DNA of 41,891 nucleotides from Oscillospiraceae bacterium (GTDB taxonomy: Bacteria > Bacillota > Clostridia > Oscillospirales > CAG-272). The stretch covers positions 1-41,891 of the forward strand of contig SVST01000020.1 in NCBI GenBank assembly GCA_015064155.1, written 5' to 3'. The notes under the pieces were generated by a model. The model was given only the letters and a program-made list of their open reading frames with translations, was not told where the DNA came from and searched no databases. Each line of letters opens with the position of its first letter. Position 1 is the stretch's first letter. This document shows positions 11,446-41,891 of the stretch, in pieces. Position numbers and translations under genes: made by a program.

Positions 11446-12381
11446 TCAGTTGCACTCTGCAACCAACGGACCTGCCAGCTCCTTGAGGTAGAACAGCTTA
11501 CCGGGAAGCGTGGGCATAAAGGTCGAGGTGACGTTCATGTCGGGACCGTAGTGGAGCGTGGTCAAGAAGCTCATGCCCTGCCAGCCCATGCCGCGTCCGA
11601 GAACGCCGTCGCATCCGCCGATGATGTAGTCAGCCTGCAGGAAAAGACCGGGGCCGATGGTGTTTGCCGAGCAAGGAACCAAGGTCGTGCGGCTCTTGAA
11701 GCTGGTCAGTGCGTTCTGCTCAATGGTCAGGGGATGCAGCTTTGCACCGATGCGGTAGCACTGTGCCTTCCACTCGTCAACCGTTGCGTAATCGTCTGCA
11801 AACTGGGGCTCCCAGAATGCGATGTGGCACATTCTTCCGATACCGAATACCAGAATCAGCTTTGCGCCCTCTTTCTTCAGTGCCGCAATCTTCTCGGGGT
11901 AGGTGGGAAGATTGGTCTTGGTTGCGAAGTTGCGCTGTGCTTCGGGAACCGTCTTGTTCAGCTTGCCGAAGAACGCCTGCTTCATGCTGTACTCAAACGA
12001 CGCGGGGTTGGTGTTGGGGAGGGTGTTGCCCTCTGCATCTGCCCACTCGTCCATGTTAAAGGTGTAAACGTGAGAGCAGTCAACGTCCCAGTTGTTCAGG
12101 AAGTAAGCCGCCCACTTGTACATACCCATAGGACCTACGGGCAGGATCATTGCCAGCTTTTCGCCGCGATCGGCTGCCGCCTTGATCTGCAGTGCGATCT
12201 CGTGACCCATCAGCGTATCAAACTCGTAAATGTTGTCACATTCCACGGGATTGAAATCCTTGTGCCAGAAATCCTCGCGTGCAACGCCCTTGTCACAGCA
12301 CTCATCCATTTTCTTCAGATCCCATCCGCGGGGGTAGAAGCCCTCCAAAAGGCTTCCCTTAACGGTACTCATAAAATCCAT
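11446..12381 (-). CDS. NagB-like amino-sugar-phosphate deaminase/isomerase family protein
   Basis: This 311-residue protein has the NagB/RpiA/SgaI-type fold signature. FNMDEW (108-113) places Asp111 at the position of E. coli NagB Asp72, the catalytic base. [14 protein letters not shown] (179-192) aligns with NagB GxGxDGHIAFNEP: His186 and Glu191 match His143 and Glu148, but the usual Asp141 is Met184. The protein therefore keeps most of the deaminase machinery yet differs at a catalytic position, suggesting a different amino-sugar phosphate or a modified mechanism. It is longer than NagB (about 266 residues) because of an N-terminal extension. It sits between the kinase and aminotransferase genes; its ribosome binding site is GTGAGGA. 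Confidence 0.82.
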
Positions 12382-14202: not shown

Positions 14203-15087
14203 ATGGACTTCACATTACACCCCATCAAGCGCGAAATCGAGCTGAAAGGGTTCCACAGCATTTACTATTTCGAATTTGGAAAAGAGTTCTCACACCCCCC
14301 CGAAAAGCACGGCTTTTGGGAAATGGTGTACGTAGACAGCGGCGAAATCAATGCCGTTACCGACGGGCTTGGTCGGAAGCTCCGTCAAGGGCAGGTCATT
14401 TTTCACCGCCCCTGGGAGGTACACGCGCACGTTTCCAACCTGATCGACCCCAATAACATGCTTGTCGTTTCGTTCACCGCAAACAGCCCCGCCATGGAAT
14501 TCTTCGACAAGAGGATCTTCACGCTCGGCAAGACCGAAAAAACCCTGCTTTCGCTGTTTGTCAAGGAGGCTCGCGTGGCTCTCGGTGCCATCCCCGACGA
14601 TTATCACGACAAAAGAGCTCTTGACTTTTCTTCCGCACCGCGCGGCTCCTTTCAGCTGCTGGAATGCTACCTGACCGAGTTTTTACTGGTGCTTTTGCGA
14701 GGCGGCGACGAAGCCTCCAGCACCGTCCTGCGAAGCGAAAAAACTCGCGCACTCGGACAAAGCTCGATCACCGAGCTGATTATTGCCTATCTGGAGGAAA
14801 ACGTCGCGTCTGACCTCACCCTGTCTGACATCTGCTCACGCTTTTTTATCGGGAAAACCCAGCTTTGTAAGCTCTTTGACGACCACGTCGGAACCAGCCC
14901 CATGGAATACTTCTCCAACCTCAAAATCACCGAGGCAAAAAAGCTGCTGCGCCGCGAAGACCTCTCGGTCAGCCGCATCGCCGATATGCTCTCCTATTCC
15001 TCCATCCATAACTTCTCTCGCGCTTTCAAAAAAAACGTCGGCATCTCCCCCTCCGACTACCGCAAAAAAATCTGGGAGAAATTTTGA
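14203..15087 (+). CDS. AraC family transcriptional regulator
   Basis: This 294-residue protein has an N-terminal cupin-type sensing domain (about 1-100, with GFWEMVYVDSGEIN and RQGQVIFHRPWEVH). Its C-terminal double helix-turn-helix (about 188-290) ends in the classical AraC signature SVSRIADMLSYSSIHNFSRAFKK..GISPSDYRK. The start at 14203 follows a GGAGGA site; an upstream in-frame ATG at 14176 has none. It is divergent from the PIG-L/kinase/deaminase operon and is its likely sugar-responsive regulator. The gene ends just before a long repeat region. Confidence 0.93.
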   Translation: MDFTLHPIKREIELKGFHSIYYFEFGKEFSHPPEKHGFWEMVYVDSGEINAVTDGLGRKLRQGQVIFHRPWEVHAHVSNLIDPNNMLVVSFTANSPAMEFFDKRIFTLGKTEKTLLSLFVKEARVALGAIPDDYHDKRALDFSSAPRGSFQLLECYLTEFLLVLLRGGDEASSTVLRSEKTRALGQSSITELIIAYLEENVASDLTLSDICSRFFIGKTQLCKLFDDHVGTSPMEYFSNLKITEAKKLLRREDLSVSRIADMLSYSSIHNFSRAFKKNVGISPSDYRKKIWEKF

Positions 15088-15109: not shown

Positions 15110-15358
15110 GGGGGAGAAACTTTTGAAAAAGTTTCTCCCCCACACCCCCTCTTCAAAACTTTCACAGCATTTTTTAAGTGCGTGAGAGTTTTTCTTTTTT
15201 CTGTCGAACCATAGGTACTGCCGATAGAATTAAACGAAAACACTTACACAAGAGAGCAAATTCTGTGAAAGTTTTGAGGGGTGTGGGGAACTTTTTCAAA
15301 AGTTCCCCACGAAAATCCCTTTTTCAAAAGCTCCCCCCACAAAAACCGCGTCCTCCGC
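15110..15358. repeat. Composite intergenic repeat, copy A (two inverted half-copies)
   Basis: This region fills the convergent gap between the AraC and DeoR genes and has no gene. The left half begins with a 15-bp hairpin (15110-15124 with 15127-15141) and continues with the core CTTTCACAGCATTTTT and GTGAGAGTTTTTC. It then has the paired segments CTGTCG and CGATAG. The right half, from about 15258, is the same family in the opposite direction (CTGTGAAAGTTTTG, then GGGGAACTTTTTC and AAAAGTTCCCC hairpin arms, then GCGTCCTCCGCGC). The covarying AGG/CCT stem module of copies B, C and D is missing here. It may also terminate both convergent genes. Confidence 0.85.
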
Positions 15359-15362
15359 GCTC

Positions 15363-16118
15363 TTATTCTCCCTTTTCCACGGTCACGAAGTCGGTTTCGG
15401 GGAAAGCGGTTTTGACGTCTGTGCCAAACGGATAGTCACTGATTACGCGGTCAACCGCGGAAAAATCGCAATAGATATCGGAGAACGGCTGGTCGATTTT
15501 TTTATGATCCACAAGGTAAAAAACCTCTTTTGCGTTTTTGGCGACGGCGCGCAGCATCAGGTCGTAGATGCCCGAGGCAATCTTCCCGTCCGCCGACACG
15601 GCACCCGTGGAGAAAAACATTTTATCCACGCGATACTGCTCGGCATTTTCCACGGTCTGTCTGCCGCAAAGCATACAGGGCTGCTCCACGATCTCACCGC
15701 CCAGGGAAATCACGCGAATCTCCTTATATTTGCTTAAATTAACGGCAAGCAGAATGTTATTGGTCACCACGGTCAGCTTTTTGCGGTTGACGAGATATTC
15801 CTCCATGCACTGTGCCGTGGTGGAGCCGTCGATAAAAATGGTATCCCCGTCCTTGACAAAGGACGCGGCAATGCGCCCGATGCTGCGCTTTTCCCAGCGC
15901 ATTTTTTGCGTTCGAAAAAGGATCGGCACGTACGCGGAACGCACCGCTTCAACACCGCCGTGCGTACGCGATACCAACTGTCTTTTTTGCAAGGAATTCA
16001 AATCACGGTTGATGGTTGCCGTGCTGTAATGCAGCGTGTCGCTCAGATATTTCACCGTGACAAAGCCCTGCTTTTCAAGAATTTCCAAAATTTGATCCTG
16101 TCTGATTTTCGTGCTCAT
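15363..16118 (-). CDS. DeoR family transcriptional regulator
   Basis: This 251-residue regulator has the DeoR N-terminal winged helix (residues 6-55, with VKYLSDTLHYSTATINRDLNSLQKRQLVSRTHGG). The C-terminal sugar-phosphate-sensing domain follows, including DGSTTAQCMEEYL and VVTNNILLAVNL. The family usually represses sugar-phosphate catabolism and is released by a phosphorylated intermediate. The ATG at 16118 has a strong GGGAGGTGA site; the open frame extends upstream to 16340 but only through the promoter region. It is divergent from the glycyl radical enzyme gene and probably controls it and itself. Confidence 0.92.
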   Translation of the reverse strand: MSTKIRQDQILEILEKQGFVTVKYLSDTLHYSTATINRDLNSLQKRQLVSRTHGGVEAVRSAYVPILFRTQKMRWEKRSIGRIAASFVKDGDTIFIDGSTTAQCMEEYLVNRKKLTVVTNNILLAVNLSKYKEIRVISLGGEIVEQPCMLCGRQTVENAEQYRVDKMFFSTGAVSADGKIASGIYDLMLRAVAKNAKEVFYLVDHKKIDQPFSDIYCDFSAVDRVISDYPFGTDVKTAFPETDFVTVEKGE

Positions 16119-16141
16119 ACCGTCACCTCCCACTTTTCTCC

Positions 16142-21106: not shown

Positions 21107-21440
21107 AAACACAGGACGCGGTTTTTTTGGGGGAGCTTTTGAAAAAGGGATTTTCGTGGGGAACTTTTGGAAAAGTTCCCCACACCCCTCAAAACTTTCA
21201 CAGCATTTTTATGTATGTGAGAGTTTTTCTTTTTTGTGTCGGACTCCGATATACTGCCGATAGCCGTCAGGTGCCACCACCCTGCCGGCTCTGCCGGGGG
21301 ACGCGGGGACGCGATTTTTTGGGGGAGCTTTTGAAAAAGCTCCCCCACACCCCCGCAAAACTTTCACAGCATTTTTATGTATGTGAGAGTTCTTGAAAGG
21401 GGTGTGGGGAAACCTTCTTGAAAGAAGGTTTCCCCACAAT
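21107..21440. repeat. Composite intergenic repeat, copy B (tandem, second unit chimeric)
   Basis: This region fills the convergent gap between the GDPD gene and the GH109-like gene and has no gene. The first unit carries GGACGCGG, hairpin arms GGGGAACTTTT and AAAAGTTCCCC, the core CTTTCACAGCATTTTT and GTGAGAGTTTTTC. It then has a TGTCGG/CCGATA pair and the stem AGCCGTCAGG (21262-21271) with CCTGCCGGCT (21281-21290) around loop TGCCACCAC. A second unit starts at about 21298 with GGACGCGGGGACGCG, a GGGGGAGCTTTT hairpin and the same core at 21359-21376. It then breaks into an unrelated hairpin (GGGGAAACCTTCTTG arms) just before the next gene. Confidence 0.88.
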
Positions 21441-21453
21441 CTATTACAATAAA

Positions 21454-22683
21454 TCAAATACTCAAATCGACAACATCGAGAGGTTGACGGCGCGTCCACA
21501 TACCGCCGGTGAAGTCTGGAATTGCCTGGGGCATACCGCCTGCGGCAACCGAAGCTTCGGAAAGGGCAGTGACCACCATCCATGCAGCGGCATCATAGAC
21601 GTCAATCGGCATAGGCTTTCCTTCCTTAAGCAGATCGACGAATGCGCGGAACATCACGCCGTCCATGCCTCCGTGACCCACCTTTTTCTGCTCGTCGGAC
21701 AAATCTTTCCAAATCGAGGGCAGGTATTTTGCTTCGTACTCGGCGGCATTGTTAAAGGATGCCTTGTAGTACTCCACGGGCTGGTAGGTTTCCATACCGC
21801 CCTCCAAAAAGACCATATTGGTATTCATTTCGTAGCAGCCGCGCGTACCGTGCAGATTGAACTCGCGCGAATAATGACGCGGAAGCGTCGTATCCAGGCG
21901 CATGGAAATGGTGGATCCGTCGGCGCAGGTAATGATGGTGTTTACGATATCGCCCTGACGGAACTGCTTGCCCTCCAGGTGCGGGAACTTTCCGGGATTC
22001 CGCGCGATGTAGTCCTGCACGCCAACGGCGCGGGAGGCAACCGAAACCAAGGAAACCATCTGATTTCCGCGGTTGATGTTCAGCACCTTTGCGATGGGAC
22101 CCAGCTCGTGCGTGGGATAGTTTTCACAGTTGCGGTTGAGGTAGTTGCGCAGGCGGTAATGACGGCGAGCCACTCCGTTTGCAATACCGGGGGCAAGATA
22201 GTGACCGTATGCGCCGTGCGCGTGTACGATATCTCCAAGCACGCCGTTTCGAACCAAGGAGGTTGCCAAAAGCTCTTGCTTACCGTAGCAGCAGTTTTCC
22301 ATGAACATAATGGGGGTCTTGGTTGTTTCGTAGGTGCGAACCATGTCCCACATACGTTCTACGCAGTATGCACCGCCGACCTCCATTGCAACGGGAATGC
22401 CCAGCTTCATGGCGTCGATTGCCACCTCAACGTGGGTTTCCCAAGAGGTTGCCACAAACACGGCATCCATGCCGCCGTGCTGCAGACAAGTATAATGATC
22501 GGTAAAGGTTTCGGGACGCTTACCGGTTTTTTCAAATACGATATTTGCCATGTCAATCGCGCGATCCTCGTAGTTATCGCAAACCGAAGCGATCTCCACG
22601 TCTTCCATGTTCAAAAGGATCTTTTTGAGAATGCTGGACCCGCGTACACCAAGACCGATAACCCCTAATTTTACAGTATTCAT
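21454..22683 (-). CDS. Gfo/Idh/MocA-fold protein, GH109-like
   Basis: This 409-residue protein has an N-terminal NAD-binding motif GVIGLGVRG (7-15). The middle contains FMENCCYGK (128-135), where the usual EKP motif region of sugar dehydrogenases is altered (MEVGG at 100-104). It then has ENYPTHELGPIAKVLNINRG (187-206). From memory, these features match glycosidase family GH109, which cleaves alpha-N-acetylgalactosamine using bound NAD in a non-hydrolytic redox mechanism; His192 would sit in the active site. There is no signal peptide, so it would act on imported glycans. A plain sugar dehydrogenase is the alternative. The ribosome binding site is AAAGGAG and it has its own promoter. Confidence 0.78.
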   Translation of the reverse strand: MNTVKLGVIGLGVRGSSILKKILLNMEDVEIASVCDNYEDRAIDMANIVFEKTGKRPETFTDHYTCLQHGGMDAVFVATSWETHVEVAIDAMKLGIPVAMEVGGAYCVERMWDMVRTYETTKTPIMFMENCCYGKQELLATSLVRNGVLGDIVHAHGAYGHYLAPGIANGVARRHYRLRNYLNRNCENYPTHELGPIAKVLNINRGNQMVSLVSVASRAVGVQDYIARNPGKFPHLEGKQFRQGDIVNTIITCADGSTISMRLDTTLPRHYSREFNLHGTRGCYEMNTNMVFLEGGMETYQPVEYYKASFNNAAEYEAKYLPSIWKDLSDEQKKVGHGGMDGVMFRAFVDLLKEGKPMPIDVYDAAAWMVVTALSEASVAAGGMPQAIPDFTGGMWTRRQPLDVVDLSI

Positions 22684-24822: not shown

Positions 24823-24898
24823 AGGGGTATAGCTCAGCTGGTAGAGTACCGGTCTCCAAAACCGTGGGTCGCGGGTTCGAATCCTCCTGCCCCTGCCA
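24823..24898 (+). tRNA. tRNA-Trp (anticodon CCA)
   Basis: This is a 76-nt tRNA with encoded CCA. The acceptor stem AGGGGTA pairs with TGCCCCT, the D arm is GCTC/GAGT, the anticodon loop CTCCAAA has CCA at 24856-24858, and the T loop is TTCGAAT. Overall sequence is close to the Bacillus tRNA-Trp I remember. Two pairs are imperfect: C27 against T43 in the anticodon stem and C50 against C64 in the T stem. The gene has its own promoter and terminator. Confidence 0.95.
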
Positions 24899-24934: not shown

Positions 24935-24935
24935 C

Positions 24936-25131
24936 AGTGAAATTTGCCCTCCAGGCAAGTGAAATAGCTACGCTGTGAAATATTTGCTCCGCAAATGTGA
25001 ATTATTCGCTAACGCGAATGTGGGCAAATTTCATTTCACATCGAACAGAACCAAAGGCGGCGTGAGATATTTCACAATTTCCGCAAGGAAATTATTTCAC
25101 ATTCGGCACAAGCCGAATATTTCACTTGAAA
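24936..25131. repeat. Array of nested small hairpins separated by GTGAAAT / ATTTCAC
   Basis: This stretch is non-coding and highly structured. Small hairpins follow one another: TTTGCC/GGCAA, AGC/GCT, ATTTGC/GCAAAT, ATTCGC/GCGAAT, then AATTTCC/GGAAATT and ATTCGGC/GCCGAAT. In the left part they are separated by GTGAAAT-like words, and in the right part by the inverse ATTTCAC. As a result the halves can also pair with each other, for example TGAAATTTGCC (24938-24948) with GGCAAATTTCA (25023-25033). From memory, arrays of this kind occur upstream of four-helix-bundle (TIGR02436-type) genes in Clostridia, and a remnant of such a gene follows. An open frame across it is an artefact. Confidence 0.8.
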
Positions 25132-31957: not shown

Positions 31958-32112
31958 GGGGGAGAAACTTTTTGAAAAAAGTTTCTCCCCCATACCCCCT
32001 CTTCAAAAACTTTCACAGCATTTTTATTACGTGAGAGTGTTCGTTTCTCGTGTCGGACGTTCGGTGCTGCCGACAGTTTTCAGGTACCACCACCCTGAAA
32101 ACTCTGCCGAGG
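31958..32112. repeat. Composite intergenic repeat, copy C
   Basis: This repeat lies in the tandem gap between fmt and the zinc protease gene. It has a 16-bp hairpin (31958-31973 with 31976-31991), then the core CTTTCACAGCATTTTT at 32010-32025 and GTGAGAGTG. TGTCGG (32051-32056) and CCGACA (32070-32075) pair. A stem GTTTTCAGG (32076-32084) and CCTGAAAAC (32094-32102) surrounds loop TACCACCAC. Compared with copies B and D the arms differ, but pairing is kept. The hairpin may end the fmt transcript. From 32113 to 32222 I see no gene and no clear promoter. Confidence 0.88.
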
Positions 32113-32222
32113 AAAGCAACATTTCCACAAAAATGTGTGGGTATCATCATGCGCCCGGGGCGCAATTCATGCACCGTCCCCTATTAAGCAAATAAACACA
32201 AACCAAACAAGGAGTACCTATC

Positions 32223-32927
32223 ATGTTATTCGGATTTTTTTATTTCGACTGGACCATCCTGATCGTTCTGCCTGCGATGCTGTTTGCATTCTGGGCGCAG
32301 ATGAAGGTCAAGGGCACCTTTGAAGAATTTTCCAAGGTGAACACGCGCTCGGGTCTGACCGCCGCGCAAGCCGCCAGAAAAATGCTGGACGCAAACGGTC
32401 TTTACGACGTTGCCATCTCACGCACGCAGGGTCATCTCTCCGACCACTACAACCCCAAGGACAGAACCCTCTATCTTTCCGAGAGTGTCCACGACGCGCG
32501 CAGCTCTGCGGCAATCGGTGTTGCCTGCCACGAGGCGGGACACGCGATCCAGCACGCAAAGAACTACGCGCCCTTGAATCTGCGCATGGGCATGGTTCCG
32601 GTCTGCAACATCGGCTCCGGTCTTGCAATGCCTTTGTTTATCATCGGTCTTTTGTTCGCAGGGGACTTCGGATATATTTTCATGCTGATCGGAATCGGAC
32701 TCTTCTCCTTGGCAACGCTGTTCCAGCTCGTCACACTGCCCGTGGAATTCGATGCATCACGTCGTGCGCTCGTTGGCATGGAGGATTGCGGTCTTCTGGA
32801 ATCAAGCGAGATCGACGGTGCGCGCAAGGTGCTGTCCGCCGCGGCAATGACCTACGTTGCGGCACTGGCAACCTCCCTGATGTCGTTGCTTCGTCTGATC
32901 ATCATCGCAAACAGCCGTCGCGACTGA
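32223..32927 (+). CDS. yugP: YugP-type membrane zinc metallopeptidase
   Basis: This 234-residue membrane protein belongs to the neutral zinc metallopeptidase type 2 family. An N-terminal hydrophobic segment (about 4-24) is followed by the active-site motif ACHEAGHAIQHA (101-112) and two to three C-terminal membrane segments (GLAMPLFIIGLLFAG, MLIGIGLFSLATLFQL, and near the end TYVAALATSLMSLLRLIII). The function of YugP is not settled. The ribosome binding site is CAAGGAG. Its position between fmt and rsmB is common in Clostridia. Confidence 0.93.
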   Translation: MLFGFFYFDWTILIVLPAMLFAFWAQMKVKGTFEEFSKVNTRSGLTAAQAARKMLDANGLYDVAISRTQGHLSDHYNPKDRTLYLSESVHDARSSAAIGVACHEAGHAIQHAKNYAPLNLRMGMVPVCNIGSGLAMPLFIIGLLFAGDFGYIFMLIGIGLFSLATLFQLVTLPVEFDASRRALVGMEDCGLLESSEIDGARKVLSAAAMTYVAALATSLMSLLRLIIIANSRRD

Positions 32928-32947
32928 GCGAACCCCGTAATTCTGTT

Positions 32948-34219
32948 ATGACGGCTCGAAGTCTTGCACTCGACGTTTTGAATAAATGTACGCTGTCGGA
33001 GCAGTATTCCAACATTGCGCTGGATACTGCCCTGCGGCGATGTGACCTGAATGCCGCAGACCGTGCGTTGGTAACCGCGTTGGTCTACGGCGTTTTGGAG
33101 CGCGGTATCACGCTCGACTATCAAATCGATTCGTTGTATACGCGCAAGGACCGTGAGCTGCAGCCCGATACGCGCAATCTGTTGCGCTTGGGGCTTTTTC
33201 AGCTTGCCTACCTCGACCGCATCCCCGATCATGCGGCGGTAAACGAAACCGTGGCGTTGGCACCCCGACGTACAAAGGGGCTTGTCAACGCCGTTTTGCG
33301 TTCTTTTTTGCGCAGAAACAAGGAGCTGCTTTATCCGGATGCTTCGCGCGAGCCGATCGAATACCTTTCGATTCGGTATTCCTTTTTGCCCGCGATCTGC
33401 CGGAGATTCTTGAAGGACTACGGCTTTGCACGCACCGAGTCACTTCTTTCCGCCTTTTGCGTACAGCCGCCTCTGACCCTGCGCGTCAATACGCTCCGAA
33501 TCACGAAGGAGGAGCTTCTCCGACAACTGACCGCCGCGGGATATACGCCCAAGAACACCGCAGAGAGCAGCGTGGGACTTACGCTGTCCGGTGCGTCGGT
33601 CACAACGCTTCCCGGTTTTGAGGAGGGTTGGTTTTTCGTCCAGGACGAAGCCTCCCAGCTCTGTGTAGCCGCCTTGGACGCAAGGGCGGGAATGCGCGTT
33701 TTGGACGCTTGCGCGTGTCCCGGCTCGAAATCCTTTGGTGCGGCGATCGATATGAACAATCATGGCAAGCTGATTGCCTGCGACCTGCACGCAAACAAGC
33801 TCTCCCTGATCCAAAGCGGTGCGGGACGGCTGGGGATCTCGATCATCGAAACCGAGGCACGCGACGCACGCCTTGCAAAAGAAGAATGGAACGGCACGTT
33901 TGACCGCGTGCTGTGCGACGTCCCCTGCTCCGGCTTCGGTGTCTTTGCCAAAAAGCCCGAGCTTCGCTACAAGGATCCCGAAAAAAGTGCCGCGCTTCCG
34001 AAAATCCAGCTGGATATTCTCAACAACGCCGCGGCATTCGTCAAGCAAGGAGGTCGGCTCGTTTATTCGACCTGCACGCTGCTCCCCGCTGAAAACGGCG
34101 CAAACGTGCGTACCTTTTTGGAAACGCATCGCGACTTCACCCTGCTGTGCGAGCGCACGCTCTACCCCGATACCGACGCAACCGACGGCTTTTATTTCGC
34201 CGTTTTACAAAAAAATTGA
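32948..34219 (+). CDS. rsmB: 16S rRNA m5C967 methyltransferase RsmB
   Basis: This 423-residue protein has the N-terminal NusB-like RNA-binding domain (about 1-130). The C-terminal SAM methyltransferase contains DACACPGSKSF (253-263), with CDVPCSGFG (323-331, Cys327) and STCTLLPAENG (374-384, Cys376) as the two catalytic cysteines. Most relatives have AAPGGKT in the first motif; here it reads ACPGSKS, and the glycine change may weaken SAM binding. The start is the ATG at 32948, where the NusB domain begins; a longer frame from 32786 overlaps yugP. The ribosome binding site is weak. Confidence 0.94.
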   Translation: MTARSLALDVLNKCTLSEQYSNIALDTALRRCDLNAADRALVTALVYGVLERGITLDYQIDSLYTRKDRELQPDTRNLLRLGLFQLAYLDRIPDHAAVNETVALAPRRTKGLVNAVLRSFLRRNKELLYPDASREPIEYLSIRYSFLPAICRRFLKDYGFARTESLLSAFCVQPPLTLRVNTLRITKEELLRQLTAAGYTPKNTAESSVGLTLSGASVTTLPGFEEGWFFVQDEASQLCVAALDARAGMRVLDACACPGSKSFGAAIDMNNHGKLIACDLHANKLSLIQSGAGRLGISIIETEARDARLAKEEWNGTFDRVLCDVPCSGFGVFAKKPELRYKDPEKSAALPKIQLDILNNAAAFVKQGGRLVYSTCTLLPAENGANVRTFLETHRDFTLLCERTLYPDTDATDGFYFAVLQKN

Positions 34220-34285
34220 CGATAACAAAACTTTCCACGCAACGGGAAAGCATGAACGATACATACTGAGAAAGGAGACCGCACA

Positions 34286-35353
34286 ATGGAAACGGATCTG
34301 AAGCAAGAGCTGTTATCATTGGATCTACAGGAGCTGGAGAGCTGGATGCTGTCGGCGGGAGAAGCAAAATACCGCGCCAAGCAGATGTTCTCGCAGCTGC
34401 ACAAGGGGATTTCGCCCGACGAGATGACGAATCTCGGGAAGCGTTTGCAGGCAAAGCTTTCGGAGCATTTTCACTGGCATCTGCCCTTGATAGAACAAAA
34501 GCTGGTTTCCAAATTGGACGGAACGGTGAAATACCTGTTTTCGCTTTGCGACGGCAACTGTGTGGAAAGCGTGGTCATGCGATATGAGCACGGCAACACC
34601 ATTTGCATTTCGTCGCAGGTGGGCTGTCGGATGGGGTGCAAGTTCTGCGCTTCTACGATTGGAGGACGGGTACGCGATCTGACGCCTGCCGAGCTTCTCG
34701 GTCAGGTCATTGCCGCCCAAAAGGACCTCGGGGAGCGCATTTCCAACATTGTGATGATGGGCATCGGTGAGCCGCTTGACAATTATGACAACGTCCTCAA
34801 ATTTTTGCGTCTTGTCAACTGTGACGAGGGCATCAACATTGGATACCGTCATATTTCGCTGTCCACGTGCGGATTGGTAGACGGAATCTATCGGCTGATG
34901 GAGGAGAATCTTCCCATCACGCTGTCGATTTCTCTGCACGCGCCCGACGACGAAACGCGGTCTGCGATCATGCCGATCAACAAACGCTTTGGCGTGGACG
35001 CGCTCCTTGAGGCGTGCCGCGCGTACTTCGCCCACACGGGCAGACGAATTTCATTTGAATACACCCTCATTGCGGGAAAGAACGACTCGTCGGAGAACGC
35101 ACAGAAGCTTGCACGCCTGCTGAATTCGAAGCTGCGCTCGCGCACCGAAACCATGCCGATCCACGTCAATCTCATTCCCGTCAACGAGGTAGAGGAAACC
35201 GACTTCAAGCACTCCTCACGCGGTGCCGTGCAGGCCTTTGCCAAGGTCCTTGAATCCAAGGGCATCCGCGCAACGGTACGCAGACGGCTGGGCGCCGATA
35301 TCAACGCGTCCTGCGGTCAGCTCCGCCGCGCCGCAATGAAGGAATCTACGTAA
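34286..35353 (+). CDS. rlmN: Dual-specificity 23S rRNA/tRNA adenine C2-methyltransferase RlmN
   Basis: This 355-residue radical SAM enzyme methylates A2503 of 23S rRNA and A37 of some tRNAs. The cluster motif is CRMGCKFC (114-121). The C-terminal NASCGQLR holds the mechanistic cysteine that forms a methyl-enzyme or cross-link intermediate. VVMRYEHGNTICISSQVGC precedes the cluster, as in the family. The ribosome binding site is AGAAAGGAG. Downstream one would expect a PrpC phosphatase and a PrkC kinase; a PASTA-only protein is found instead. Confidence 0.96.
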   Translation: METDLKQELLSLDLQELESWMLSAGEAKYRAKQMFSQLHKGISPDEMTNLGKRLQAKLSEHFHWHLPLIEQKLVSKLDGTVKYLFSLCDGNCVESVVMRYEHGNTICISSQVGCRMGCKFCASTIGGRVRDLTPAELLGQVIAAQKDLGERISNIVMMGIGEPLDNYDNVLKFLRLVNCDEGINIGYRHISLSTCGLVDGIYRLMEENLPITLSISLHAPDDETRSAIMPINKRFGVDALLEACRAYFAHTGRRISFEYTLIAGKNDSSENAQKLARLLNSKLRSRTETMPIHVNLIPVNEVEETDFKHSSRGAVQAFAKVLESKGIRATVRRRLGADINASCGQLRRAAMKEST

Positions 35354-35420
35354 AGCTGCCGATCCGTGCCTTCCGACGTCGGCGGCAATCGGGTCTTCCA
35401 AACGTCGGAAATCGCACGTT

Positions 35421-36131
35421 ATGAAAAAAGTACTGTTTTCCTTTCTTTGCCTGCTCTTTGGCATCTGGCTTGTGGCAGACGATCTTTTCGCGCCCTTTTC
35501 GCCAAAAGCCGAAATTGTGGAAATTCCCGAGCTTTTGGGTCTTTCGGAGCAAGCAATCGTCCTTGACGACCGCTTTGAATTGCAACGGGAATACCGCTAT
35601 GATGAAGCAACCCCCGAGGGGACCGTGATTTTGCAGGAGCCCGCGGCGGGAAGCCGACGAAAGCGCACCTCCCCCGCCGAGCCGATCTCGGTACGGATTG
35701 TGATCAGTCTTGGAAAAGAAAGCATTCCGTTGCCCACGGCGGTTGGAAAGGATGCGCGCGTTGTGGCGGCAGAGCTTCGCGCACTCGGTCTTTCGGTCGA
35801 AACCGAATCCCGAATCGGCGCACGTCCCGAGGGAGAGGTGCTGTCCATGTCCCCCTTGGCGGGAACGCGCGTTCCCAAGGGAACCAAAATTCTGCTGACG
35901 GTCAGCGCAGGACCCTCCCGGGAAAGCGTGACCGTCCCCAATCTCGTGGGGCTTTCGCGCGCGCAGGCACTCGTCCGTCTTTGGACGGCACAGCTCTCGC
36001 TTGCCGCGGCAGAGGAGGTCGAATCCCCTACCGAGGGAGGGATCGTCGTCGCACAAGACCATCAACCGGGAACCGTGGTTCCCGCGGGAACCGCCATTAC
36101 GCTGTACGTCAGCCGAGAGGTCCCGGAATAA
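35421..36131 (+). CDS. Membrane-anchored protein with three PASTA domains and no kinase
   Basis: This 236-residue protein has an N-terminal hydrophobic segment (about 4-19), probably a signal anchor, followed by three PASTA domains (about 33-98, 101-164 and 168-232). The repeats carry the usual pattern of IPELLGLSEQ.. / VPNLVGLSRAQA.. starts and P.EG.V..Q.P..GT.VP.GT..... ends. There is no kinase domain, although the gene sits exactly where prkC lies in related genomes. PASTA domains bind peptidoglycan fragments, so it may sense or bind the cell wall without phosphorylating. A 9-bp inverted repeat (35371-35379 with 35402-35410) precedes the start, and the ribosome binding site is weak. It could be a decayed prkC or a dedicated wall-binding protein. 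Confidence 0.87.
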   Translation: MKKVLFSFLCLLFGIWLVADDLFAPFSPKAEIVEIPELLGLSEQAIVLDDRFELQREYRYDEATPEGTVILQEPAAGSRRKRTSPAEPISVRIVISLGKESIPLPTAVGKDARVVAAELRALGLSVETESRIGARPEGEVLSMSPLAGTRVPKGTKILLTVSAGPSRESVTVPNLVGLSRAQALVRLWTAQLSLAAAEEVESPTEGGIVVAQDHQPGTVVPAGTAITLYVSREVPE

Positions 36132-36166
36132 ACCCTGCTTAAAACGCTTAGAAAAGGAGATATGCG

Positions 36167-37204
36167 GTGTCCCTTACGCGGGGAATCCGCAAAAGCAATA
36201 TGACCTATACTGGATACGGACGAGTTATCAAGGGAGTTGGCGGACTGTTCACGGTGCGCGTTTTTGACGGACGGTCAAGACTGCGCCGCGAGCCGTACGA
36301 GCCCATGCCCCTGGACGGAAAAACCGTCCACGCACGGGGACGCGGAGTGCTGCATCGCAAGGGTGCGCTGCTCGTGGGCGATCTGGTGGAGATCTCTTAC
36401 GACTCCACCTCCTTTACCGAGAGCAACGGCGAAATTGTCCCCGACGAGGGCGGCACGGGCATTGCCATTGACCGCGTTTGCGACCGCCGCTGTGCCTTGA
36501 TCCGTCCGCCCATGGCAAACCTGGAGCTTTTGTTCGTCACCTTTGCGGCGGCATCTCCCGCCCCCCTCTTCGACACCATCGACAAGCTGATTTGCATTGC
36601 CGAATTCAACCGCATTGAGCCGGTGATCGTCATCACCAAGTGCGATCTTGCCCCCGACGTCGCAAGCTCCATGCGTGCAATCTATGAAAGAGCCGGCTTT
36701 TCGGTGTTTTGCGTGGGTCTTGACCCCGAAACCGACCAAACCGCGATTCTCAAGCAATACATCGACGAAAATCTCCCCCAACGGGTTGCCGCCTTTTCGG
36801 GGGCTTCGGGGGTTGGCAAATCGACGCTGCTCAACCGCCTTTTTCCCTCGCTCGGACTTGAAACGGGCGAAATCAGCCGCCGCATCGAGCGCGGCAAAAA
36901 CACCACGCGCTACGTGGAGCTGTATCCTCTTTCCGAGCTTCCCGACTGCGGCTTTCTGGCGGATACCCCCGGCTTTACCATGCTGGATTTCGAACGCTTT
37001 GATTTTTTCGAAAAAGAGGATCTTCCCTTGACGTTCCGCGAATTTCTCCCACACATCGGAACCTGCCGCTTTACCAAGTGCAGCCACACCAAGGAACAGG
37101 GATGTTCGATCGTTGAGGCGGTCAAGCGCGGAGAGATCGCACGCTCGCGTCACGAAAGCTTTCTCACACTTTACGATATCCTAAAGAAAAAAACAAAATG
37201 GTAA
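36167..37204 (+). CDS. rsgA: Ribosome small-subunit-dependent GTPase RsgA
   Basis: This 345-residue circularly permuted GTPase acts in late 30S assembly. An N-terminal OB-fold-like region (about 12-80) precedes the G4 motif TKCD (157-160), G1 GASGVGKST (212-220) and G3 DTPGF. The C-terminal zinc module follows with CRFTKCSHTKEQGC. The start is GTG at 36167 with AAGGAG 7 nt upstream; an ATG at 36162 is in another frame, and the ATG at 36200 has no ribosome binding site. Rpe normally follows but is not here. Confidence 0.95.
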   Translation: MSLTRGIRKSNMTYTGYGRVIKGVGGLFTVRVFDGRSRLRREPYEPMPLDGKTVHARGRGVLHRKGALLVGDLVEISYDSTSFTESNGEIVPDEGGTGIAIDRVCDRRCALIRPPMANLELLFVTFAAASPAPLFDTIDKLICIAEFNRIEPVIVITKCDLAPDVASSMRAIYERAGFSVFCVGLDPETDQTAILKQYIDENLPQRVAAFSGASGVGKSTLLNRLFPSLGLETGEISRRIERGKNTTRYVELYPLSELPDCGFLADTPGFTMLDFERFDFFEKEDLPLTFREFLPHIGTCRFTKCSHTKEQGCSIVEAVKRGEIARSRHESFLTLYDILKKKTKW

Positions 37205-37213
37205 GGAGGCAAC

Positions 37214-39157
37214 ATGTATACCTATTCGATCATGCCGCTGTCAGACACGCATTTTGACGAGATCTGCGCTGATGTACGCGATCAGTACGAGCGCGGGATC
37301 AGTACCTGCCCGCTTTTCAAAATGACTTTAGTCCCCGAGGGCAACCCCGTTTGGGATAAGGCGGGACCTTTATGCGCCCTCTATCGCCGGTATCGAGAGG
37401 TACTGAAGCCTTACGGAATCAAAACAGGCATCCTGATCCAAGCATCCTTGGGTCATGGCTATACGATCACCCCCAACCCCTTTGATCGGTACGTCAACCT
37501 GAGCGACGGTGCAGAACGGTTTGTATGCTGCCCCGAGGACGAACGCTTTTTAGACCATTTTTCGGGGGTTTTGGAGCAGCTTGCCGCTGAGCATCCCGAT
37601 GCCATTATGCTGGATGATGACTTTCGATTGGTCGTCCGTCCCGGTCGCGGATGCGCATGTCCGAGACATATGGCGGAATTCAACCGACGCGCGGGCACCG
37701 ATCTGACACGCGAGCAGTTATATGCTCACATCCGCAGTCATGACGGCAAGGACCGTCTGACCCGTATTTTTCTGGAAACCCAGCGCGATTCGCTGATCCA
37801 TGCGGCAACCCGATTCCGCGCAGCGATCGACCGCGTTGACCCCTCGATCCAAGGCATCAACTGCACCAGCGGTGATAGCTGTGAATCGGTGATATATACA
37901 TCCAAAATCTTTGCCGGTAAGGGCAATCCCACCATTGTGCGCGCGGCAAACGGGATCTATGCACCGCTGACCAGCAAAGGCTTTAGCGCAAAGATTCGAA
38001 ATGCAGCTGTCCGAGGGGGGAAGCTCCGTAAGCACGGCATCGATATCGTGCTTTCCGAAACCGATACCATTCCCTTCAACCGTTACGGAAAAAATGCACG
38101 CTATCTGCACGCACATTATACCGCCTCGATTTTGGAACGCATGAAGGGTGCCAAGCACTGGATCACTCGCTTTTCGGCATACGAGCCAAATTCGGGAAAA
38201 GCATTCCGAGACATTCTTGCCATGCACCGCGGCTTTTACGAGCGTCTTGCAGATCTTTCCGATGAAATTGAATGGGCAGGCTTCGGTTCGCTCTTTCTGG
38301 AGCAGGAATACTCGGCAATCGAAGCGGAGAATGTTCGCTTCTACCACGAAAACGAATGGATCTCATCGGTCCTGGAGCGCATGGGACTTCCCTTTTACTT
38401 CACCGATACGCAAAAGGGTGCGGTCCTTTTGGAAGGCTCGATCGTGTGCGACATGACCGATACAGAGATCTGCGAGCTGTTTGACAAGGGCTCGGTGTTC
38501 GCTGACGGAGAGTCGGCATCCGATCTTGTCGCACGCGGCTTTGGTGACCGTCTCGGTGTTTCGCTCGCCCCGTGGGATCTTGACCCCGTAAGGGGAGAAA
38601 CCTTCAACCAAAGGGACGACTGCTTCTGCACCAAGCAGAAAAATCACCGAAGGATCACCATTGAAAACAAACGTGTCGAAGCGCTTTCGCACAATTTCAA
38701 AACCGATTGCAACGAGTGCGTGCTGCTTTCTCCTGCGGTGACCTCGCTTTCACGCGGGGACGGAAAGCTTTCCGTGGTGTATTGCGGCACTCCCAAAGCC
38801 AATTTCGATTACACCGAGGGCTTTGCTTTTCTCAATGAAACGCGCAAAAAGCAATTTGTACAGCTGATGAAGCGCGCCAACGTACTGCCCGTGTACTATG
38901 AAGGAGACAACGAGGTCTGTCTCCGTGCAGGTCACTTGCAGGACGGCACACTGCTGTGCACCCTGTTGACACTGGGATTTGACCCGATGGACAGCTTTGA
39001 TCTGTACTTGGAGACTCCGCCAAAAGCAATGGAGATGCTGCTTCCCGACGGCTCACAAGCCCCCGTTTCGTTCACACCTGCGAAAGACGGACTTTATACC
39101 GTCCATGCGCGCGTAGAGCCAATGTATCCTGTCGTTTTGCTGATTCAATCCCGGTGA
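37214..39157 (+). CDS. Uncharacterised glycoside-hydrolase-like protein
   Basis: I recognise the general shape but not the family of this 647-residue protein. Residues about 1-400 look like a TIM barrel: HPDAIMLDDDFRLVV (127-141) and HGIDIVLSETDTIPFNR (274-290) carry acidic groups (Asp134-136, Glu282) where retaining beta-glycosidases place catalytic residues. GHGYTITPNPFDRYVN and a cysteine pair (CAC, 147-149) are distinctive. Residues about 400-640 end in beta-rich domains resembling GH42-type C-terminal parts (LLPDGSQAPVSFTPAKDGLYTVHARVEPMYPVVLLI). No signal peptide is present, so it would act on imported substrate. The ribosome binding site is AAGGAGG, 9 nt after rsgA. A non-catalytic relative cannot be excluded. 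Confidence 0.7.
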   Translation: MYTYSIMPLSDTHFDEICADVRDQYERGISTCPLFKMTLVPEGNPVWDKAGPLCALYRRYREVLKPYGIKTGILIQASLGHGYTITPNPFDRYVNLSDGAERFVCCPEDERFLDHFSGVLEQLAAEHPDAIMLDDDFRLVVRPGRGCACPRHMAEFNRRAGTDLTREQLYAHIRSHDGKDRLTRIFLETQRDSLIHAATRFRAAIDRVDPSIQGINCTSGDSCESVIYTSKIFAGKGNPTIVRAANGIYAPLTSKGFSAKIRNAAVRGGKLRKHGIDIVLSETDTIPFNRYGKNARYLHAHYTASILERMKGAKHWITRFSAYEPNSGKAFRDILAMHRGFYERLADLSDEIEWAGFGSLFLEQEYSAIEAENVRFYHENEWISSVLERMGLPFYFTDTQKGAVLLEGSIVCDMTDTEICELFDKGSVFADGESASDLVARGFGDRLGVSLAPWDLDPVRGETFNQRDDCFCTKQKNHRRITIENKRVEALSHNFKTDCNECVLLSPAVTSLSRGDGKLSVVYCGTPKANFDYTEGFAFLNETRKKQFVQLMKRANVLPVYYEGDNEVCLRAGHLQDGTLLCTLLTLGFDPMDSFDLYLETPPKAMEMLLPDGSQAPVSFTPAKDGLYTVHARVEPMYPVVLLIQSR

Positions 39158-39180
39158 AAATGAAAATAGAGGAGAAAAGA

Positions 39181-40143
39181 ATGATGAATAATTCCGATCG
39201 TATCTGGGCGTTTTTGATTCATCTTGGCTCTAATATGTGGAGCAAAAAGGAACGCGTACAGCCCTTTGTGCGCCACGAAGAAGATTTTACATACAAGGAC
39301 AAAATGTTTTGTCAAAAGGAAATCTTCCGAAAAGTGACCGAATTTCTGCCCTCTTGCGGGATCAACACGTTGGTGATCGATATCGGAGAGGGAGTTCGGT
39401 TGAACTCGCACCCCGAAATTGCCACCGAGGGGGCATGGAGTCGGGAAGAGCTGCGCGAAGAGCTTGCAAGACTTCGTTCGATCGGGTTGACCCCTATTCC
39501 GAAATTCAATTTTTCCTGTGCGCACAGTGCGTGGATGCAGGATTATGCCTATATGGTCGGCACCAAGACGTACGACAACTTTTGCCGTGACGTCATTGAG
39601 GAAACGATTGAGCTGTTCGACGTCCCCCCTTATTTCCATCTCGGGCTTGAGGAGGAGGACTACGAGTCACAAAAAACCAACCATATTGCCATCGTCCGCA
39701 CACCGCACAAAAAGATGCAGGATGCACTTCGTCTGTTTGACATTTGTCTTTCACATGGGGTTCGCCCGTGGATCTGGGCAGATTTTGAAAGCTTTGGCGG
39801 CCCCGAAGCTTTTGCCGAACGCGTACCGCGAGAGGTAATGCTTTCCACGTGGTACTACGGTATGCTCCGCGACGGAACACCGTCCGAAAAGCTACCGCGT
39901 GCCGTGCAAATGATCGACATTGGTACGTCGCTCGGCTATGACGTGATCCCCACCTCTTCTACTTGGTCGTGGCACCTCAATTCCAAGGATACCATGATGT
40001 ACTGCCGTGACCGTATTCCCCCCGAGCACATCAAGGGCTTTATGACCGCTTCTTGGATGCTGACCATTGAGAAAAAGTACTATGCACTTCTCAACGATGC
40101 GTATACCTTTTATCACGCAAGGCGCGATATTTTCGGAGATTGA
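39181..40143 (+). CDS. GH20-like TIM-barrel protein
   Basis: This 320-residue protein resembles hexosaminidase-type barrels: INTLVIDIGEGV (61-72) and YFHLGLEEEDY (151-161), the latter similar to the HxGxDE site of GH20. Later segments STWYYGM and TSSTWSWHL fit barrel strands with aromatic substrate contacts. There is no signal peptide and no other domain. The ATG at 39181 has GAGGAG 7 nt upstream; an in-frame GTG at 39154 overlaps the previous stop and has no such site. It follows the larger glycosidase-like gene by 23 nt and probably acts on the same substrate. Activity is unproven. Confidence 0.68.
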   Translation: MMNNSDRIWAFLIHLGSNMWSKKERVQPFVRHEEDFTYKDKMFCQKEIFRKVTEFLPSCGINTLVIDIGEGVRLNSHPEIATEGAWSREELREELARLRSIGLTPIPKFNFSCAHSAWMQDYAYMVGTKTYDNFCRDVIEETIELFDVPPYFHLGLEEEDYESQKTNHIAIVRTPHKKMQDALRLFDICLSHGVRPWIWADFESFGGPEAFAERVPREVMLSTWYYGMLRDGTPSEKLPRAVQMIDIGTSLGYDVIPTSSTWSWHLNSKDTMMYCRDRIPPEHIKGFMTASWMLTIEKKYYALLNDAYTFYHARRDIFGD

Positions 40144-40184
40144 CCGAGACACCTCGCGCTTTCTCAAAAAAGCGTCATAACCGA

Positions 40185-40213
40185 TTAACTTTTTCACGGC
40201 ACCGTGTTATAAT
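40185..40213 (+). promoter_or_regulatory. Promoter for the MATE transporter gene
   Basis: TTAACT (40185-40190), 17 bp and TATAAT (40208-40213). The -10 box overlaps the left arm of a dyad, CGTGTT (40203-40208) and AACACG (40215-40220), a possible operator. Confidence 0.75.
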
Positions 40214-40257
40214 AAACACGTTTATGTAGCCGATTTCCCTGTCGAAAAGGAGACTCT

Positions 40258-41634
40258 ATGGCAACCCTGACCAAGAAACAGAAAGACTTTACATCGGGAC
40301 CGATGTTCTCTAAAATGATTTTGTTTACACTCCCCGTCATCGCAACGAGTGTTTTGCAGCTGTTGTTCAACACTGCCGATACCTTCGTCGTCGGAAACTG
40401 GGGCGGTGCAACCCCCGAGGCGCGCGAGGCGGCTCTTGCGGCGGTTGGCTCCTGCGGCTCACTGACCAGCCTGCTCACGGGTCTGTTTTTGGGGCTTTCG
40501 GTGGGTGCCGGCGTTACGGTTGCCCATGCCATCGGTGCCAAAAACGAACGCGAGATCGGCAAAACCGTACATACGTCGGTGGTAATCTCGCTGATCTGCG
40601 GCATCGTGGTAAGCGTCTTCGGTATTATATTCGCAAGACCGTTGCTGTCGCTTATGGGAACGCCCCCAACCGTGTTGGATGAAGCCGCACCCTATATGCG
40701 CGCTTGCTTTTGCGGCATGACCGCCAATATGCTCTATAACTACTGTGCCGCGATTCTGCGTAGCACGGGAAACACCATGGGACCGCTTTTCTTCCTCTCG
40801 GTTGCAGGCGTTGTGAACGTGGGGCTGAATTTGGTAATGGTGCTTGTCTTCCACATGGGTGCGCTCGGTGTCGGTATTGCAACCGCCGCGTCGCACTGGG
40901 TGTCGTGTATTCTGGTCGTGACCTACATGATGCGCATGGACGGTCCTTGCAAAATTGAACCGCGGAAGCTATGCATCTCCAAGCCACAGCTCAGAAAAAT
41001 GATTTTGATCGGATTGCCCGCAGGCATCCAAAGCACGCTCTTTGCCATTTCGAACGTGACCATCCAAGCCTCGATCAATTCCTTTCACTCCAACGCGGTC
41101 ATTGCCGGAAATACCGCCGCTTCGAATCTGGACAGCTACGTTTACTTTGCGCAGAACGGACTTTACCACACCGCGTTGACCTTTGTCGGACAAAATCTCG
41201 GTGCAAACAAGTACGAACGCGTCAAAAAAGCCATTATATACGCGCTTTTGTGCGTCTGCGTCGTGGGCATTCTCTTGGGTACGACCGTGTTCTTGTTCGG
41301 TCGCCCCCTGCTGAGCATCTTTAACGACTCTCCCGCAGTGGTCGACGCGGGCATGGTGCGCCTGACCTACCTTTGCCTGCCTTACTTCCTTTGCGGTGCA
41401 ATGGAGGTGGGAAGCGGAACGTTGCGCGGTCTCGGAAAATCCATGACCTCCATGATCATTTCGCTGATCGGCGCGTGCTTTTTGCGCCTGCTCTACCTTG
41501 CCACCGTCTTCAAAATGCTCCATACCACAAGAGTCCTGTACCTCTCCTATCCCCTCTCTTGGATCTTGACCACCATCGCCCTCTTCCTCTTTGTCTTCAT
41601 TGAGCTGCGAAGATGGAAGCGAACAATGACATAA
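40258..41634 (+). CDS. MATE family efflux transporter
   Basis: This 458-residue protein has about 12 membrane segments in two six-helix bundles, typical of multidrug and toxin extrusion (MATE) antiporters that export cationic drugs or metabolites using Na+ or H+ gradients. Family features include LPVIATSVLQLLFNTADTFVVGNW near the N-terminus, GAGVTVAHAIGAKNE, and VGQNLGANKYERVKKAI in the second half. The substrate cannot be read from sequence. The ribosome binding site is AAAAGGAG. It has its own promoter and lies downstream of the glycosidase-like genes, in the same direction but separated by 114 bp. Confidence 0.95.
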   Translation: MATLTKKQKDFTSGPMFSKMILFTLPVIATSVLQLLFNTADTFVVGNWGGATPEAREAALAAVGSCGSLTSLLTGLFLGLSVGAGVTVAHAIGAKNEREIGKTVHTSVVISLICGIVVSVFGIIFARPLLSLMGTPPTVLDEAAPYMRACFCGMTANMLYNYCAAILRSTGNTMGPLFFLSVAGVVNVGLNLVMVLVFHMGALGVGIATAASHWVSCILVVTYMMRMDGPCKIEPRKLCISKPQLRKMILIGLPAGIQSTLFAISNVTIQASINSFHSNAVIAGNTAASNLDSYVYFAQNGLYHTALTFVGQNLGANKYERVKKAIIYALLCVCVVGILLGTTVFLFGRPLLSIFNDSPAVVDAGMVRLTYLCLPYFLCGAMEVGSGTLRGLGKSMTSMIISLIGACFLRLLYLATVFKMLHTTRVLYLSYPLSWILTTIALFLFVFIELRRWKRTMT

Positions 41635-41647
41635 CCTTACAAGGGCG

Positions 41648-41891
41648 CGAGGACGCGCCCCACGCCAGAGCCGGCAGGGTGGTGGCACCTGACGGCTGTC
41701 GGCAGTACCTATGGTTCGATAGAAAAAAGAAAAACTCTCACGCATAGAAAAATGCTGTGAAAGTTTTGCGGGGGTATGGGGGAGCTTTTTCAAAAGCTCC
41801 CCCATAAAAATCGCGTCCCCGCGTCCCCACGGCAGAGCCGGCAGGGTGGTGGCACCTGACGGCTATCGTCAGTACCTATGGTTCGATAGAA
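41648..41891. repeat. Composite intergenic repeat, copy D (tandem, cut by window end)
   Basis: Two units in the orientation opposite to copies B and C follow the MATE gene. Unit 1 has stem AGCCGGCAGG (41669-41678) and CCTGACGGCT (41688-41697) around loop GTGGTGGCA. It then has TGTCGG and TCGATAG words, the core AAAAATGCTGTGAAAG (41749-41764) and a GGGGGAGCTTTT hairpin. Unit 2 repeats GGACGCGG-type sequence in inverse, then stem 41836-41845 with 41855-41864, and runs off the edge in CTATGGTTCGATAG. No gene is present. Confidence 0.87.

Follow-up and report, generated by a model that had tools for sequence, protein, structure and literature searches.

The window analysed here, a stretch of 41,891 nucleotides (nt; positions 1 to 41,891 of contig SVST01000020.1, assembly GCA_015064155.1) from an Oscillospiraceae bacterium, carries at four places, copies A to D, a genuine, structured and dispersed repeat that is nearly confined to one genus in our sample. 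Read along the direction of the upstream gene, its modules are a hairpin (H1); a pyrimidine tract, the third strand, usually separated from H1 by three bases, mostly A-C/A/T-A; an A/T-rich hairpin (AAAACTTTCACAGCATTTTT..GTGAGAGTTTTT) with a T tract behind it; a weak pairing, TGTCGG..CCGATA (M3); and a second stem-loop (S4), after which comes CTCTGCCG. Units stand singly, in tandem arrays or as inverted pairs. The S4 stem covaries, and where H1 has a purine arm its two arms and the third strand vary together across species, the third strand matching the arm in parallel. The repeat lies between genes, mostly at their 3' ends, and its presence at the two gene ends tested is lineage-specific. We think it probable, at roughly 0.6, that it is a non-autonomous, modular, dispersed intergenic repeat of one genus of gut-type Clostridia that behaves like a miniature inverted-repeat transposable element (MITE) or a BOX repeat, with H1 and its third strand as a candidate triplex and S4 as a putative recognition hairpin.

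Distribution and placement of the repeat

An earlier note on this DNA had described a dispersed repeat at four places in the window, and all four carry its modules. The repeat is not confined to the window. In the genome of origin (2,136,851 bases in 29 contigs, 86% complete), a BLAST search with a 116-base piece of copy B gave at least 74 matches, a lower bound with 40 of 54 first-look candidates scored. Whole-genome searches with a model of S4, described below, found matches in at least 18 of 35 genomes of the genus, the genome of origin included, with at least 33 copies in that genome and at least 72 in the richest. Outside the genus, a search of an even sample of the order, made with stricter filters under which weak matches are lost, returned a single weak match (E 4.8e-4) in one of 97 genomes and none in the five sampled genomes of other genera of the same family.

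Within the genome of origin the copies are clustered: 57 of the 74 matches lie on the contig of the window (C8) and on contigs C9 and C20, together 182 kb or 8.5% of the genome. The genome holds one match to fmt, a gene on C8, and this argues against that contig being a simple contaminant. C8 (window 41834–41891) and C9 (L016) stop inside a repeat and C10 (L020) stops close to one, indicating that the assembly breaks at the repeat. C20 holds an array of six S4-bearing units at 26.4–27.4 kb, the copy number of which is uncertain because a short N run lies inside it (L010, about 6745–6760).

Placement was scored against gene ends from a custom codon-usage gene caller, not a standard one. Of 50 clusters of modules, 12 single-module matches (six of them inside called genes) were dropped and 38 multi-module clusters were used, six at contig or stretch edges and 32 internal. 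Fifteen of the internal clusters lie between convergent genes, 16 between codirectional and one between divergent genes, as against 37, 192 and 35, respectively, of the 264 adjacent gene pairs in the same stretches (Fisher p 4e-5 for convergent). None of the 32 overlaps a called gene, by an overlap rule that is unable to flag matches of 12–15 nt. The 57 S4 matches analysed also overlap no called gene; they are what remains of a total of 70 once a weak match in L184 and those of the window, L017, L174, L180, L193 and L204 are set aside.

The repeat is also oriented. Among 107 H1 units, obtained from 133 by requiring that the third strand contain CCC and be 60% pyrimidine and with tandem units counted individually, 66 of the 75 with an upstream gene in the genome of origin share the sense of that gene, as do all 30 that lie within 40 nt of a gene end, where H1 starts 5–37 nt 3' of the stop codon. 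The bias is weaker in relatives, at 17 of 28 for H1 (two of the relatives' 30 rows, from L171, are not elements, and one of these is among 13 same-sense cases within 40 nt) and 39 of 53 for S4. Inverted pairs of H1 and S4 are seen in relatives as well as at copies A and B, and many copies in the genome of origin are one-sided.

We then compared orthologous gene ends. Copy C follows fmt in the genome of origin, and no S4 match (E up to 0.1) was found at the fmt 3' end in 28 congener loci; G017 has a different H1-type unit there, and in several congeners the next gene starts within about 50 bases. Of the 29 congener loci compared, one (L265) ends inside the gene and three have short flanks (206, 163 and 55 nt). 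At the 3' end of a GH109-like gene (window 21454–22683), a similar unit with an S4 match was found in the flank of one of 12 congeners (G011); 13 loci were taken, of which L229 ends inside the gene and one has a flank of 83 nt. An automatic H1 flag also fired on L222 and L261, which by eye are not such units. Thus, the presence of the repeat is lineage-specific at both ends. That it is missing at most orthologous gene ends makes stable cis-regulation of particular genes unlikely and fits repeated gain and loss. Of the possibilities that the earlier note had raised, a structured RNA, a protein-binding hairpin or a mobile palindrome, these absences favour a dispersed mobile-type repeat, without fully separating the three.

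The GH109-like gene has a paralogue, 70% identical, on contig C9 of the same genome (40318–41541), and both have the repeat at the 3' end.

Covariation of S4 and of the three strands at H1

The window holds two versions of the S4 stem, GTTTTCAGG/CCTGAAAAC in copy C and AGCCGTCAGG/CCTGCCGGCT in copy B, around an almost unchanged loop. The earlier note had seen compensatory changes among copies B, C and D. The comparison of C with B bears this out, while D carries the same stem as B on the minus strand, so the window has two independent stems, not three. The B/D stem includes one T.C mismatch, at a position where 34 of the 56 distinct sequences from across the genus likewise fail to pair, and stem mismatches in S4 are generally T.C and C.T. 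In the whole genome of origin there are three stem versions, with 88.3% of cells paired and 52 cells double-changed. The covariation score and the number of double-change cells were reached in none of 500 shuffles and the number of pair types in all 500. This own-genome signal rests on about three haplotypes; it is the test across species that makes the covariation solid.

The hairpin recurs in relatives, where its stems are quite different and its loop core is similar. In 24 S4 sequences across species of the genus (alignment A3), the loop is mostly CCAC[CT], 90.5% of cells pair, double changes occur at 8 of 11 pairs (0/500 shuffles) and the covariation score is 0.51 as against 0.149 in shuffles (0/500). 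A3 was picked by a pattern that demands the loop CC[AG]C[CT], GG/CC and the outer pairs, so the pairing and the loop conservation are partly circular; the loop is also present in units listed from H1 alone, as judged by eye. A model built on A3 gave 70 S4 matches from 64 sources, and the 56 distinct sequences derived with it (alignment A4) are 89.6% paired, with 112 double-change cells compared with 22.6 in shuffles (0/500), a covariation score of 0.506 compared with 0.140 (0/500) and eight double-change pairs, a number matched by 11 of 500 shuffles. S4 thus covaries in both sets, and neither of the two outcomes that the earlier note had named as refuting its reading was obtained.

The compensation that had been proposed for TGTCGG/CCGATA is weak: M3 is 77.7% paired, as against 77.0% in shuffles, 45 of 500 of which were as high. 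Ahead of the anchor, far more often than expected by chance, 50 of 57 anchored elements carry a perfect hairpin of 9 bp or longer (shuffled mean 0.15, 20 rounds); these 50 represent 22 arm strings, end differences included.

The third strand was examined at hairpins with a 5' purine arm, selected by a left arm with a run of at least four purines and at least three G and by a downstream A-run/CTT anchor (133 of 1,859 hairpins). At these, the pyrimidine third strand matches the purine arm in parallel; for long, irregular arms a parallel match is seen and an antiparallel one is not, and short arms are weakly informative alone, several types having p above 0.1. On the sense strand the order of tracts is purine arm, pyrimidine arm, third pyrimidine tract (R-Y-Y), so that a purine tract, a complementary pyrimidine tract and a third tract with a (reverse) Hoogsteen match stand on one strand, and the three vary together across species. 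This three-strand match hints that selection keeps a three-stranded DNA or RNA structure. Together with the S4 covariation, it supports selection for structure more strongly than the earlier note, which had suggested it, could see; the third strand next to H1 had escaped that note.

Copies in the window and associated repeats

Copy A starts on the plus strand about 20 nt past the stop codon of the upstream gene (14203–15087) with the H1 hairpin GGGGGAGAAACTTTT-GA-AAAAGTTTCTCCCCC (15110–15141) and the third strand CCCCCTCTTC (15145–15154), which complements the purine arm of H1 in parallel and skips one A. The A/T-rich hairpin (AAAACTTTCAC / GTGAGAGTTTT), the T tract and CTGTCG..CGATAG follow (15155–15227). 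The fixed order of modules that had been claimed holds in part, as copy A lacks the last stem-loop and continues into an inverted unit on the minus strand (15258–15308, with H1' at 15285–15308) that faces the convergent gene 15363–16133. Copy B consists of two units. The first (21158–21300, plus strand) contains H1 (21158–21181), the third strand (21185–21190), the A/T hairpin (from 21191), M3 and the S4 stem-loop (21262–21290); the second (21321–21435, plus strand) contains H1 (21321–21346), the third strand (21350–21356) and the core hairpin, and ends in an inverted third strand and H1' (21406–21435) adjoining the stop codon of the GH109-like gene on the minus strand.

Copy C, on the plus strand, lies about 15 nt past the fmt stop codon (31942) and runs from H1 (31958–31991) through the third strand CCCCCTCTTC (31995–32004; arm and tract are identical to an entry in the third-strand test) and the A/T-rich hairpin with the weak M3 pair, here TGTCGG/CCGACA (32005–32073), to the S4 stem-loop AGTTTTCAGG-TACCACCAC-CCTGAAAACT (32075–32103). 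Copy D, on the minus strand, has an S4 stem-loop with the sequence of copy B (41669–41697), a segment (41757–41803) with H1 (41778–41803), the third strand CCCCCGC (41768–41774) and the left arm of the A/T hairpin, and the S4 stem-loop of a second unit (41836–41864), inside which the contig stops.

In some copies a second repeat (GGCTGGCACGGAGCGTATGCTCCGTTGCCGC...) lies within H1 or replaces it (L013, about 11500–11810 and 9300; L011, 11290; L009, 7780); these are nested repeats. Other dispersed families, such as CTTCCCCCTCGGGGGAAGG and TGTAGGGACCGGCGTCCTCGACGGTCCG, stand inside or after elements (L014, L020, L093, L192), and genome G001 has inverted-pair elements of roughly 1 kb with a variable core (L093:780–1870, L192:1290–2370, L035:650–1740). 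Rfam 15 gave three matches at gathering threshold in the window, none of them on a repeat copy; at copy C there were 18 sub-threshold matches, 12 of them to miRNA models, with a best E of 0.015 and all under gathering scores. Elsewhere in the window, a Gut-1 RNA (Rfam RF01706, 53.5 bits; 24935–25008, plus strand) stands directly after a tRNA-Trp gene (24823–24898), and the 5' end of a 16S rRNA gene, truncated by the contig end, occupies 1–88 on the minus strand.

Explanations and relation to known repeats

In the mobile-type repeat that we favour, half-units would read outward from the gene end, from H1 through the third strand, the A/T-rich hairpin and the weak pairing to S4. H1 with a purine arm and its third strand would fold as an intrastrand triplex when single-stranded, of class III on the sense strand and class I on the other. 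S4, whose loop is near-constant and whose stem commonly has a pyrimidine-pyrimidine mismatch, may serve as a recognition hairpin, bound by a protein that mobilizes or processes the element. Copies may persist directly 3' of stop codons because insertion there harms least. Somewhat below even odds, and offered tentatively from sequence comparison, is the further proposal that natural selection acts on an intrastrand triple helix in living bacteria. Its three strands would co-change across a genus, comparative genomics alone would have detected it, and it may serve the sense strand as a triple-helical mRNA end.

Several observations weigh against this picture. Some H1 hairpins, those of two G001 elements and the GTCAGACCC type seen at L033, L041 and L246, have no purine tract and fall outside the third-strand test, so the family as a whole cannot depend on a triplex. 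The third-strand match is only partial for short arms and for the AGC type (GGGGGAGC with CCCCCGC). At neutral pH, runs of C+.G-C triplets are disfavoured. The number of further pair types in S4 does not exceed that in shuffles (92/500 for the 24-sequence set, 178/500 for the 56-sequence set). In relatives, the gene on the 5' side is in the opposite sense for 11 of 28 H1 and 14 of 53 S4 matches. Neither a target-site duplication nor a precise empty site was established, the relatives being too distant, and no cognate transposase was identified, Y1_Tnp being the sole transposase family searched.

The strongest rival, in our view unlikely, is an RNA element that functions in the 3' untranslated region and shares the transcript of the gene before it. 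Transcription would be terminated, or the 3' end of the mRNA protected, by H1 (perhaps folded into a pyrimidine-motif RNA triplex), by the A/T hairpin and its U tract and by S4, and the element would have spread by copying and been kept for this role. The uniform sense of the own-genome H1 units just past stop codons suits it, as does the R-Y-Y order of the sense strand, a motif said to form in RNA (PMC4666352). On the sense strand of the A/T hairpin, moreover, G.T outnumbers A.C by 40 to 1, though mostly at one pair; no such asymmetry is seen in M3 (31:24) or S4 (5:3). RNA folding z-scores are similar for the two strands (-4.94 and -5.18), no terminator was detected at copy C by a consensus scan, relatives have copies in the opposite orientation and presence is not conserved at the two orthologous gene ends, all of which argue against such an element.

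Less probable still is that the mirror relation at H1 is a by-product of something other than a triplex, for example of a protein that binds a symmetric purine tract, or of G-then-A gradients shared by both tracts. The low information in short arms and the H1 hairpins that exist without the mirror relation would suit this, and the triplex is a prediction from sequence; in long, irregular arms, however, the match is parallel rather than antiparallel, and a mirror cannot arise from ordinary copying between strands.

The earlier note had suggested looking for a repetitive extragenic palindromic (REP)-associated tyrosine transposase gene elsewhere in the genome, and no Y1_Tnp match was found in the genome of origin at its 86% completeness. 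Across the genus, among the matches listed and in incomplete genomes, Y1_Tnp matches occur in six of 35 genomes (five above cut-off), four of the 18 with S4 and two of the 17 without. G040, G024, G003, G041 and G001 have at least 42–72 S4 copies each and no Y1_Tnp match, and G014 has a strong Y1_Tnp match and no S4 copies among the matches listed. Neither a GTAG nor a CGTC tag was seen beside S4 on inspection of alignment A3, where flanks begin YCG and end two bases past the stem. Mobilization as REP elements or bacterial interspersed mosaic elements (BIMEs) by a Y1 transposase is therefore very improbable, despite the short palindromes, the placement 3' of genes, the inverted pairs and the four S4-bearing genomes with a match, since 14 of 18 have none.

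According to PMC3733652, REP/BIME sequences of the GTAG and CGTC super-families are palindromic, extragenic and mostly 3' of genes, with close units oppositely oriented. The present repeat resembles them in these respects and differs in being longer and modular, with no such tag beside S4 and no visible Y1 transposase link. Another comparable repeat is TM_ECO (BoxC or PIT elements) of E. coli, a dispersed intergenic repeat with three tracts able to form a single-strand triplex (Holder et al. 2015, PMC4666352); both also include some inverted pairs. TM_ECO is of class II (Y-R-R, with the third R at the 3' end), its copies are nearly identical in sequence, and it shows neither strand or orientation bias nor a fixed distance to genes (PMC4666352). 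By contrast, our repeat, at hairpins with a 5' purine arm, is R-Y-Y (class III, or class I on the other strand), its tracts vary together across species and form one module of a larger repeat, and in the genome of origin it is biased to the 3' ends of genes and sense-oriented near them.

BOX repeats are built of boxA, boxB and boxC modules recombined in variable number, and the modular build, with tandem and partial units, is shared by the present repeat. The BOX, RUP and SPRITE elements of Streptococcus pneumoniae, as described in PMC3049150, occur in few related species, have extensive secondary structure and are judged parasitic; our repeat is like them by description in the first two respects and differs in its third-strand tract, which that description does not include. 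With MITEs it shares short, non-coding, partly inverted-repeat architecture, many copies and lineage-specific presence, whereas the target-site duplication and parent transposon that mark MITEs are not established for it. Among titles and abstract openings in the literature on intrastrand triplexes, on intergenic, MITE-like, BOX and REP repeats and on noncoding-RNA triple helices, we found no published description of this repeat. Its general kind is known; within that literature the covariation of three strands is new, as is an S4 hairpin with a conserved loop.

In TM_ECO, the best described intrastrand triplex repeat of bacteria (PMC4666352), the near identity of copies makes selection for the third strand inseparable from selection for sequence. 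The present repeat keeps the three-way match in many sequence versions, so that the cellular relevance of triplexes becomes testable by alignment and by swaps of arm and third strand. The S4 hairpin with its near-constant loop, in turn, would offer a specific bait with which to capture the factor responsible for moving or reading the repeat.
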